From positions 1 through 22,490 of IMG/VR virus record IMGVR_UViG_3300030099_000153: a stretch of DNA of 22,490 nucleotides; one strand, written 5' to 3'. The position numbers were made by a program, and so were the translations under genes. Below, in pieces: positions 1 through 21,937 of the stretch (position 1 is the stretch's first letter; every line of letters starts with the position of its first letter). This DNA comes from a virus. Under the pieces are notes generated by a model. That model saw only the letters and a program-made list of their open reading frames with translations, had not been told where the DNA came from and did not search any database.

Positions 1-1603
1 TATTACCCTCATATAATTCTAAAGTAGGTTGTTGTTCTCCCATAATAAAATATTTATTAGCACCACCTACTGATTGTACAGAAACTGTATAGTTAATTGT
101 TGATGCTACATATGACATATTAAAGCCATAAACTTCAGGAGAAGATGCTTGACCTAAAATGAACGCATTTCCTGCTGGATTTACTTTTAATACTTTATCT
201 GCATTTCCTGATACAGATGATAAACCAGTACCACCTTTTGATATTGGAACTACTGGTAATCTAGCTGTAGATAATGTTCCTGATGAAATGTTTGCTGCAT
301 CAATTGCTGCAACATTAAATGTACCAAAACCTACAACATCAACAGTATCTGTTCCTGATGTACCAATTGCTGATGCAAAAACTATAGAGTTTCCTGATGA
401 AACAGTAACATCAGAACCATTAACCATTTTAACACCATTCAAATAAACATCTACAAATCCAGCATCATAAGCAAGTGTAGCACCATTATCATCATTACCT
501 GTTATTGTTGTAGTTGATGATGAAACTGTAAATGTAAATCTAGCAGAAGTACCATTAATTGTTGAACCTGCTGCACTCCATCCTGATGATTTATAAACTT
601 TTAATTCATTTTGTGTTGTGTCAAAATATAAATCTCCAACATCAAGTGATGTAGTAGGAGCAGATGATGCTATTCTATATACACTAGCAAAATTATTTAC
701 ATCACTAATATTTGCTGCAGCAATATTAATATTAGCAATATGTGGGCCAACAGCATTTACATTAGCAATTGATCCACCTACTAAATCTACATTAGTAATT
801 GCATTTGCTACTACTTCTATTTCAGATGTAGATTCATTTAAGTCATTAGCGGCAGTTACTACTTTTGATATATCTGCAGCGACTGTAGAAATATCAGAAC
901 TATTAAAACCAGCAAGAGTTGTAATATCAGATGATATAGCACCAAGACTTGTTATTTCTGAATTTAAACCAGCAAGTGTAGTTATATTACTAGAATTTCC
1001 AGCAACACTAGTAATATCACTAGCTATTCCACCAAGAGTTTGTATTTCAGTAGATAATCCTGATATAACAGCTAAACCTGAAGATGAAGTTGTAGTTTCT
1101 AAATTACCATTTGCATCAAAAGATAATATTTTATCTTGTCTAGTTGCTTTAGCTGGTAAAGTTACAGTTGCAGAAACAGTATCAGTATCTAATAATTTTA
1201 CTGATCTATCTGTTTGTCCTTTTAAATCTCCTACAATTGCAGTTAATTGATCAAGTTGTGTATTTATAGATTTAACATCTAAAGTTCCTGTACTAGAAAA
1301 ATCTGAAGTTCTAGTAATAGCAATATCTCTAATGATGACGATTATATCATTAGCACTTGCCCCACCACCACCTAGCTTTAATGTGCCTCCACCACCAAAT
1401 TCATAAGCGTCATCACTTGAAGATGCAGTTCCTATTAAATTGTACTGCGAATTTGTTGTTGGACTTGCATTGTAAGTAAGCAAAGTTCCATTTTTAAATG
1501 CTTTAACATCTGCTACTGCAAAAAATTCAAAACCAATAGTAAAATCAGTTTGACCTGCTGTAGCAGTATATGTATTTCTAGGTGTATTTAAACTAATTGT
1601 CAT
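1..1603 (-). CDS. Tail fibre protein, T7 gp17-like N-terminus (3' end outside window)
   Basis: The minus-strand frame is open from ATG 1603-1601 to the left window edge: 534 complete codons, no stop, so the C-terminal receptor-binding part is missing. Residues 1-100 begin MTISLNTPRNTYTATAGQTD and resemble the T7 gp17 N-terminal tail-attachment domain. Residues about 187-306 are decapeptide repeats. Residues 321-342 carry a GDLYFDTTQNELKVY motif, residues 380-430 a YDAGFVDVYLNGVKM segment, and residues 440-460 a SGTLSTARLP...GGTG motif, all recurrent in phage tail fibre shafts. The start overlaps the stop of the gp16-like gene (ATGA), so translation is probably coupled. The protein would form the host-recognition fibre at the tail base. 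The class is confident; the receptor cannot be inferred from what is visible. Confidence 0.88.
   Translation of the reverse strand, partial: MTISLNTPRNTYTATAGQTDFTIGFEFFAVADVKAFKNGTLLTYNASPTTNSQYNLIGTASSSDDAYEFGGGGTLKLGGGGASANDIIVIIRDIAITRTSDFSSTGTLDVKSINTQLDQLTAIVGDLKGQTDRSVKLLDTDTVSATVTLPAKATRQDKILSFDANGNLETTTSSSGLAVISGLSTEIQTLGGIASDITSVAGNSSNITTLAGLNSEITSLGAISSDITTLAGFNSSDISTVAADISKVVTAANDLNESTSEIEVVANAITNVDLVGGSIANVNAVGPHIANINIAAANISDVNNFASVYRIASSAPTTSLDVGDLYFDTTQNELKVYKSSGWSAAGSTINGTSARFTFTVSSSTTTITGNDDNGATLAYDAGFVDVYLNGVKMVNGSDVTVSSGNSIVFASAIGTSGTDTVDVVGFGTFNVAAIDAANISSGTLSTARLPVVPISKGGTGLSSVSGNADKVLKVNPAGNAFILGQASSPEVYGFNMSYVASTINYTVSVQSVGGANKYFIMGEQQPTLELYEGN
686..1045 (-). repeat. 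Decapeptide repeats in tail fibre shaft
   Basis: Residues about 187-306 of the tail fibre form roughly twelve degenerate ten-residue units. Clear examples are ITSVAGNSSN, ITTLAGLNSE, ITSLGAISSD and, later, VDLVGGSIAN, VNAVGPHIAN. Each has a hydrophobic residue at unit position 1 and an L/V-A/G pair at positions 4-5. One unit (227-237) has an extra residue. Such a short period fits a trimeric beta-structured or coiled shaft whose length can change by recombination between units. Confidence 0.7.
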
Positions 1604-20578: not shown

Positions 20579-20989
20579 CTAGCTTAAGTCTATATTAATC
20601 TTGAAATCGCCACCAACAAGGTGTTGGTGTTTGTCAGGGGCTTTGAAACCACTGCGATCAAGTATGTCCTTTGCTGCTTCTAGCTGGACATACTCTGATT
20701 TAGCCCCCTGACAAAGTTGTAGTAGTCGTGAGGATGCTTTGGCAGAGTGAATCCCAAGAGAACGCTGTATCTCTTGTGCCATGTACTGCTGCACTTCAGG
20801 TTTTCGTAGCATCTTACTGGCACTTACTCTAGCTGAATTACCCTTGTAACCAGCGAGTTTTGATGCTTCTGTGATAGAACATCCACGAGATACAAGCGTA
20901 TCTACAAGTAACTTGGCTTTGCCAGTTATTTGCTTGGGATTCCTACTCTGACTCAAAGCATTCAAAGGTGCTGAAACTACCTTACTCAT
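20579..20989 (-). CDS. Terminase small subunit (136 aa)
   Basis: This is the DNA-recognition subunit of the packaging motor. Residues about 22-62 (TGKAKLLVDTLVSRGCSITE, then ASKLAGYKG and ARVSASKMLRKP) form a helix-turn-helix typical of TerS. The C-terminus EAAKDILDRSGFKAPDK plus a short strand (GGDFKINIDL) is also typical. I place the start at ATG 20989, with AGGAG four bases upstream. A longer frame from 21067 would run through the promoter, so its first 26 codons are rejected. The first codons, SD and promoter lie within the left arm of the large inverted repeat, so the N-terminal tail may derive from the duplicated sequence. Confidence 0.87.
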   Translation of the reverse strand: MSKVVSAPLNALSQSRNPKQITGKAKLLVDTLVSRGCSITEASKLAGYKGNSARVSASKMLRKPEVQQYMAQEIQRSLGIHSAKASSRLLQLCQGAKSEYVQLEAAKDILDRSGFKAPDKHQHLVGGDFKINIDLS

Positions 20990-21019
20990 GAAACTCCTAT
21001 CTGTTAATACCTTACAGGG

Positions 21020-21048
21020 AGTATAGAGGAGAGTCAGGTTTGTGTCAA
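21020..21048 (-). promoter_or_regulatory. Sigma-70 promoter of terS and the late operon
   Basis: On the minus strand a perfect -35 TTGACA (21048-21043) is followed by exactly 17 bases and a -10 TATACT (21025-21020). Transcription should start near 21013, leaving a leader of about 24 bases before terS. This is the best promoter match in the window and indicates that host RNA polymerase reads the late region. The same bases align with coding sequence of the 148-aa gene in the other arm, which reads CTAACA at the -35 position. Confidence 0.85.
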
Positions 21049-21175
21049 GCCACCAGCACAGACACAAGATGTAGTAGTTACCGGATGTCGTGCATCCTGT
21101 ATCTACCTTTTTACAATTACTCCCTTTGTTTAAGTTTAACTACGCCCAACATACAATCAAAGGAGCTTCTTAAAC

Positions 21176-21229
21176 AACAACTAATTTCCCCTCTGCTGCG
21201 CAGATTCCTCGCGAAACAAATTAGCTGTT
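21176..21229. repeat. Central stem of the inverted repeat
   Basis: AACAACTAATTT (21176-21187) pairs with AAATTAGCTGTT (21218-21229), 11 of 12 positions. The 30-base interior holds a small hairpin TCTGC-TGC-GCAGA (21192-21204) and the palindrome TCGCGA (21209-21214). The interior is clearly more G/C-rich than its surroundings. In RNA or extruded DNA this would be the tip of the large hairpin. Confidence 0.7.
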
Positions 21230-21256
21230 CCCCTCGGTGGGCAAGTACACCTCGGT
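21230..21256. repeat. 27-base insert in right arm with a direct repeat
   Basis: This stretch has no counterpart in the left arm. It carries CCTCGGTG twice (21232-21239 and, running one base past the insert, 21250-21257), 18 bases apart. The second copy forms a short hairpin ACACC-TC-GGTGT. Confidence 0.55.
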
Positions 21257-21324
21257 GTTTAAGACTCCTCCATGATTGTTATTCATGTTGGCGTGTTAAA
21301 CATAATAAACAAAGGAGTAAATAT

Positions 21325-21771
21325 ATGAAAAAAGGTAACACAATAAAGGATGCACTAGACATCATGGTAACATACTACGAAGATATGTCTGTGCCTAACA
21401 CAAACCTAGACTCTTATACACCTGCAAAAGCAGTGGTAGGGAGTTTCATAAGAGGTAGAGAAGCAGCTTTGAGATCGGCTTTGAAAGCAAGATCAGGCCC
21501 AGCTTCTCAAATCAGATACCTTGTATCAGATGAAGTTTGGACTGGAGATGAAATCCAAGATACTAAACTTCAACAACTACAAGCATTTGTTGAGAAGATT
21601 GATCAGCAAATGGTTTTGATTGAACAACATAAGCAAGAAGCTATGCAATACTTCTTTGAGAAGTTTGGTGTAGCTTATACGCCTTATGTTCCAAAACCGA
21701 TCAATGTTGCTAATGCTAAAAAGCAAACTGCAGCATACAAAGATGCTTTGAAACTAGTAGCTAACGCCTAG
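21325..21771 (+). CDS. Hypothetical protein, first gene of the divergent operon (148 aa)
   Basis: Not recognised. ATG 21325 follows AAAGGAG by seven bases; an upstream in-frame ATG at 21040 would run through the terS promoter and is rejected. The 148-aa product starts MKKGNTIKDALDIMVTYYED, has a basic helix (FIRGREAALRSALKARSG), a Gln/Glu-rich likely coiled coil (about 85-118, KLQQLQAFVEKIDQQMVLIE) and a Pro/Tyr linker (YTPYVPKPINVA) before a basic C-terminal helix. Codons are less A/T-biased than in most of the late genes. It is first in the rightward set, so it may be an early protein. Its first third and its leader are mirrored in the left arm of the inverted repeat, and its SD could pair with that arm. 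Confidence 0.82.
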   Translation: MKKGNTIKDALDIMVTYYEDMSVPNTNLDSYTPAKAVVGSFIRGREAALRSALKARSGPASQIRYLVSDEVWTGDEIQDTKLQQLQAFVEKIDQQMVLIEQHKQEAMQYFFEKFGVAYTPYVPKPINVANAKKQTAAYKDALKLVANA

Positions 21772-21786
21772 TTTAATTCAAAGATT

Positions 21787-21819
21787 AATCCTGCTTGGGA
21801 TTTATTCCCAAGTAGGATT
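21787..21819 (+). terminator. 14-bp hairpin after the 148-aa gene (terminator-like or regulatory)
   Basis: AATCCTGCTTGGGA (21787-21800) pairs with TCCCAAGTAGGATT (21806-21819) through 14 pairs, one of them G-T, around loop TTTAT. It starts 15 bases after the stop codon. The downstream bases (GTTAATAATG) are T-poor for an intrinsic terminator, so efficiency is doubtful. A second CTTGGGAT occurs at 21882-21889 and could compete for the same partner. Confidence 0.6.
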
Positions 21820-21821
21820 GT

Positions 21822-21927
21822 TAATAATGAGATACATAGACGACAGACTAGGTCATGATTAACCCATATAAGCACGCAAGTCTTGGGATCGTTGGTATTG
21901 CAACCTTAACTATGTATCTCACTATTG
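21822..21927 (+). ncRNA. Candidate structured RNA closed by a 16-pair long-range stem
   Basis: Bases 21828-21839 and 21910-21921 form 12 perfect pairs (TGAGATACATAG/CTATGTATCTCA). After one mismatch, four more pairs (21823-21826/21923-21926) extend the stem. The 70-base interior can form ACGA/TCGT (21840-21843/21889-21892) with AGACT/AGTCT (21845-21849/21879-21883), plus a hairpin GTTG/CAAC (21891-21894/21901-21904, sharing two bases with the previous helix). No good reading frame with an SD lies here. A tRNA was considered and rejected. It may be a small RNA or a cis-acting element between the 148-aa and 44-aa genes. The non-coding stretch 21772-21979 is otherwise accounted for by the flanking hairpin and promoter. 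Confidence 0.5.
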
Positions 21928-21937
21928 ACATCAATAG
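21922..21937. promoter_or_regulatory. Perfect 16-base palindrome, operator candidate
   Basis: CTATTGA (21922-21928), CA, TCAATAG (21931-21937) form a perfect 7-bp inverted repeat. It lies exactly over the TTGACA of the promoter candidate at 21925. A dimeric regulator bound here would compete with RNA polymerase. Confidence 0.5.

Follow-up and report, generated by a model that had tools for sequence, protein, structure and literature searches.

Introduction

GOLLD, ROOL and OLE are large, highly structured and covarying RNAs, some of which are carried by phages. Another phage RNA, the phi29 pRNA, lies near the packaging genes and combines a stem with a two-hairpin junction. The element studied here is an imperfect palindrome located between the gene of the terminase small subunit (terS) and the first early gene of a phage. 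Like GOLLD, ROOL and OLE, it is large, structured and covarying. However, it differs from them by its one dominant long stem, which overlaps a protein gene encoded on the opposite strand, as well as by a sequence that turns over almost completely and has no Rfam match. With phi29 pRNA it shares the stem-two-hairpin junction, the phage host genome and the proximity of packaging genes, but its stem is far longer, terS is present, its location differs and no Rfam match to the pRNA model was obtained.

Two other kinds of described structures are relevant. In the Frpo promoters of plasmids, a folded single strand rebuilds the -35 and -10 boxes (PMC9849209), and such ssDNA promoters are also treated in PMC11541004. 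As in Frpo and ssi of conjugative plasmids, the palindrome is a long bulged stem-loop found upstream of anti-restriction and SSB genes, and in one group of lineages (class A) its stem carries consensus -35 and -10 boxes (TTGACA-16..18-TATACT in the 3′ arm, the -35 box being often bulged). Unlike Frpo and ssi, it has far longer arms and belongs to a dsDNA phage, and its promoter is explained by terS and is missing from the arms of several lineages. Besides, Monttinen and Loytynoja reported hairpins made by template switching (PMC8794818), which resemble the palindrome by their compensatory multi-base changes and tract-like copying; those hairpins have short stems, whereas the arms described here reach 200-600 nt and display conserved bulges and a wobble bias. 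Our literature search found no paper on such a feature in pelagiphages.

A large palindrome between terS and the first early gene

The window, i.e., the whole stretch of DNA analyzed, is a viral contig of 22,490 bp (IMG/VR IMGVR_UViG_3300030099_000153). Its late block (tail, capsid, portal, terL, terS) is oriented leftward and its early genes rightward. The features discussed below are the following:

20579..20989, - strand: terS, terminase small subunit (PHROG 51, E 1.5e-12)
20953..21176, - strand: left arm; read in terS sense, the 3′ side of the long bulged stem (self-alignment)
21020..21048, - strand: terS promoter, consensus sigma70-type (TTGACA-17-TATACT), inside the left arm
21177..21255, - strand: apical region with two small hairpins, loops UACUUGCC and GCA (folding)
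21256..21484, - strand: right arm; read in terS sense, the 5′ side of this stem (self-alignment)
21325..21771, + strand: first early gene, 148 aa, Hodr gp22 family, predicted to be all-helical

The inverted similarity had first been proposed by a sequence-only reading, which suggested its comparison with shuffled sequences. When the left flank was reverse-complemented and aligned with the right flank (Smith-Waterman; match 2, mismatch -3, gap open -5, extend -2), the score was 109, above all of the 500 dinucleotide-preserving shuffles (mean 20, sd 2.4, maximum 34). The outer limits of the arms, 20953 and 21484, are exactly those given by this reading. The direct-orientation control scored 32. 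Chance similarity of the arms is ruled out by the shuffles, this control and a reversed control. The right arm begins 69 nt ahead of the ATG at 21325 and covers 160 nt of the ORF, so that it indeed corresponds to a leader plus about 53 codons; on the terS-sense strand, it is antisense to this leader, to the Shine-Dalgarno site and to these first codons of the first early gene. The left arm contains the terS start codon and the first ~12 terS codons and, as had been noticed, is rich in indels (28 gap openings vs 19 mismatches). The longest exact run in our alignment has 10 bp, and the initially listed block of 15 matches out of 16 bases was not recovered as such. The arms are separated by a spacer of 79 nt.

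The predicted ability to form a large hairpin is borne out by folding (z -14.2 for the - strand and -10.6 for the + strand), and a sliding self-palindrome scan of the window found no second large palindrome. The replication origin evoked as an example by the same reading gained no support from these data. A chimeric join at the palindrome is unlikely: L002, a contig that belongs to another metagenome assembly, matches this region with 99.97% identity, and the architecture recurs in a cultured isolate. An assembly artefact was rejected on the evidence of other assemblies and of this isolate.

Distribution among relatives

The nearest cultured relative of the window is Pelagibacter phage EXVC031P Hodr. 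Its palindrome occupies the equivalent location, between its terS and gp22 genes (about 11.9-12.6 kb in OQ414635), and has an unrelated sequence, whose own two arms match strongly; the first genes of Hodr and of the window share 27% amino-acid identity. It should be mentioned that the record OQ414635.1 (L088) is named EXVC031P Hodr and that its locus tags read EXVC032PBaldr, probably due to a mix-up of labels at deposit.

A large palindrome was found in most of 80 terS relatives and, after two further scans, in 60 of 103 unique loci distributed in 29 lineages (half-score ≥50; block-shuffled null with a mean of 22 and a maximum of 33), these lineages being split by right-arm dissimilarity and not fully independent. 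The 43 other unique loci have no detectable palindrome. Among relatives based on TerL, MEP301, BcepC6B, VA-RY-3 and Ss1 carry short repeats only and no similar palindrome. The palindrome occupies one fixed place per genome and is found nowhere else; on its inner side, the stem usually stops 48-80 nt ahead of the ATG of the first gene (some exceptions from 13 to 191 nt). The locus L048 is extreme: its arms (+63..+677 and +827..+1498 relative to the terS start) exceed 600 nt and mirror the whole first gene (177 aa), with many short deletions in the left arm.

Joint change of the two arms

In a matrix of 15 x 15 lineages, each left arm matched the right arm of its own lineage (scores 69-371), whereas left and right arms from different lineages matched at chance level (17-40). 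The similarity between left arms of different lineages probably corresponds largely to terS coding sequence. The matching of the arms extends into terS codons in Hodr, L078, L072, L053 and L017 (own scores 45-77 vs codon-shuffle maxima 26-30) but not significantly in the window. Sites that have changed on both arms and are still Watson-Crick paired largely exceed expectation in three comparisons between close relatives: 13 vs 1.3 for L072/L038, 17 vs 3.2 for Hodr/L017 and 15 vs 0.9 for L068/L067. At very short distances, for example among the close relatives of the window, most changes affect one side only, and the left arm hardly varies.

The sequence-only reading had interpreted the left arm as an old copy of the beginning of the first gene, inverted and then decayed; the corresponding explanation is an inverted duplication that decays without function. 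Most left-arm sequence is non-coding and rich in indels, and the many short deletions of L048 beside a mirrored complete gene would fit such a decay. However, the two arms follow each other inside every lineage but not from one lineage to another, compensatory changes are found, and the spacer, too, folds and covaries; moreover, the left arms are not closer to the arms of relatives than to their own right arm, although a decaying copy would be expected to diverge from its source and to stay similar to the copies in related phages. The comparison of the same locus in related phages, which that reading had advised, thus revealed a shared architecture carried by unrelated sequences, at odds with a mirrored decayed copy. 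We therefore consider this explanation as highly improbable. For the same reason, i.e., the joint change of both arms in close relatives and the folded, covarying spacer, the divergence of the arms does not date any single old event, contrary to what had been deduced from it.

Arms could also be kept alike by mutation, without any function, if template switching or short-tract conversion recopied one arm from the other, bulges being the footprints of this process. Hairpins are known to arise and to be kept by template switching, with compensatory changes of several bases (PMC8794818), and one-nt indels are abundant. Conversion-like tracts were also seen: L067 carries a tract of 12 nt that is identical in both arms, and the compensated pairs that distinguish L108 from L027, L188 and L025 are adjacent, like one conversion or template-switch tract (p about 0.001). 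Overall, the clustering of compensated pairs, used as a test of conversion, gives mixed results: a few runs are tract-like but most pairs are dispersed, although dispersal alone does not exclude copying. Two other features fit poorly with such a process. The first is the single fixed place of the palindrome in each genome. The second concerns the stem bulges (1-6 nt), which copying would erase: their positions relative to the ATG of the first gene correlate between lineages (0.081 vs a null of 0.000, sd 0.022), a correlation that is partly due to shared descent and that is not significant in all small subsets of lineages. Together with the wobble pairs described below, these observations make a purely mutational maintenance unlikely.

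Folded shape and strand preference

RNAalifold analysis of six relatives gave a structure composed of a long stem, one branch and two hairpins, in which 96.8% of the alignment cells are paired. In this structure, 15 of the 57 pairs changed on both sides (vs 6.3 in shuffles, 0/500), while controls with slid structures had at most 50% of paired cells and 0-5 pairs changed on both sides. Compensatory changes thus exceed both shuffled and slid controls, as expected for a structured RNA. The covariance model built from these six relatives retrieved the held-out loci L190 (E 3e-15), L188 (1e-14) and Hodr (6e-6), always on the terS-sense strand; it matched none of the palindrome-free loci and did not match the window itself. 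The search of eight sources with Rfam covariance models gave no match at the gathering score and only chance-level matches at permissive E-values. At least two apical hairpins were found on the - strand in 26 of 33 loci. On the terS-sense strand, otherwise dissimilar sequences (window, L120, L106, L155, L171 and L175) share CUUG(C) in one apical loop, UACUUGCC in the window; it is possibly a binding or kissing motif.

Isolated mismatches between arms were counted by strand, in place of loose alignments that are confounded by composition. Those of wobble type number 58 on the - strand and 14 on the + strand (34 and 33 expected, p=4e-7); 17 lineages favour the - strand and five the + strand. The locus L048 supplies 17 of these 58 cases, and 17 of its 18 wobble-type mismatches are on the terS-sense strand. 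Furthermore, conserved wobble (G-U) pairs occur in the six-relative alignment (6/6 and 5/6), so that G-U pairs are found on one strand, another trait of structured RNAs. In L004, a close relative of the window, the apical hairpin has changed so that a U-A pair is replaced by U-G on the - strand. Copying between arms would turn wobble pairs conserved on one strand into Watson-Crick pairs; template switching alone therefore does not explain them, nor does it account for the fixed location and the persistent bulges. A strand-biased C-to-T mutation is another possible cause of the wobble excess. The apical folds are also more stable on the - strand beyond the effect of composition (23 of 30 loci, p=7e-5), but the apical region of the window has no such preference. 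Transcription of the whole hairpin from outside was considered too, and promoters are not enriched directly outside either arm, on either strand (p 0.35 and 0.86).

This strand bias points to a terS-sense RNA or to a single-stranded DNA. The latter would be a hairpin promoter or primer site of the Frpo type, or else a site used in replication or packaging, whose - strand folds when single-stranded. Apart from the strand preference, this explanation agrees with the consensus promoter found in the 3′ arm of class A elements, which points to the stem base as in Frpo, and with early genes that recall plasmid leading regions by encoding ArdC, SSB and recombination proteins (the next early genes of Hodr include those of ArdC, a replication-initiator-like protein, YqaJ exonuclease, SSB and RusA). 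However, no single-stranded entry stage is known for a tailed dsDNA phage, and the gene content is that of a tailed phage rather than of an element entering by conjugation. The position of the promoter is clearly the one expected for terS; it is kept in class A relatives and also in the palindrome-free loci L041, L054 and L086, whereas several lineages have no such promoter in their arms. In addition, several class A members have a separate predicted rightward promoter after the first gene. An Frpo-like promoter is a weaker rival, and a folded ssDNA element appears quite improbable. We infer that folding takes place in RNA and not in single-stranded DNA.

Proposed nature of the element

Selection for pairing is well supported by these data. 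The palindrome is probably a single large element, structured and under selection to fold within one strand, most likely as RNA, from the terS-sense strand. In the proposed folding, the antisense of the leader and N-terminal codons of the first early gene (5′) would pair with the terS-side leader (3′) in a long bulged stem, which two or more small hairpins would cap in most lineages. Pairing persists while the sequence turns over, despite the overlap of the 5′ strand with a protein-coding gene; the 3′ strand itself overlaps terS codons in several lineages. Template-switch mutation may help in this maintenance. As for its role, we suggest, only tentatively and with a modest chance of being right, that the element could act at the head of late transcription (terminase and structural genes), as a cis leader or a free RNA whose 5′ strand would also oppose expression of the first early gene, and so function as an early/late switch.

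The element might even represent a new class, which we regard as plausible although somewhat short of probable: a very large phage RNA whose stem joins the antisense of the first early gene to the terminase leader, whose two strands both overlap protein-coding sequence in several lineages, whose fast compensatory evolution lets only the shape persist, and which would be an RNA switch or a cofactor of packaging or of the late operon. It would be a large, previously undescribed structured element of marine phages, visible only through the covariation of its arms amid sequence turnover and missed by homology searches. It would also be a case of long-range pairing imposed upon protein-coding sequence and a natural system to separate selection for pairing from template-switch mutation. 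It points to a control point, at the level of RNA or of folded DNA, beside the packaging genes and within reach of tests in a cultured pelagiphage.

The first early gene and its surroundings

The first early gene is a real protein gene, with a dN/dS mostly of 0.1-0.3 in close pairs, both inside and outside the arm, and it diverges fast. Its product has no Pfam or PHROG match, and its predicted structure is all-helical (pLDDT 88). At E ≤0.001, the fold search with this model matched nothing in the PDB; it did retrieve two viral proteins, one unnamed and one uncharacterized. The protein alignment lacks conserved blocks. Across many loci, the slot of the first early gene is occupied by several apparently unrelated families of ~120-200 aa, with an extremely fast turnover.

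A clear rightward promoter ahead of the first gene is mostly missing in palindrome-bearing loci and is present in some palindrome-free ones. In several class A members, a separate rightward promoter is predicted after the first gene. In the window, a near-perfect hairpin of 14 bp (21787-21819, AATCCTGCTTGGGA / TCCCAAGTAGGATT) directly follows the stop codon of the first gene, which suggests that this gene is its own transcription unit. No tRNA was found. Between the first and second early genes, the window also carries an inverted repeat of 21 nt with 90% complementarity (21819-21839 / 21910-21930). This repeat overlaps a predicted rightward promoter (TTGACA at 21925-21930), and other class A members also have a predicted promoter between these two genes.
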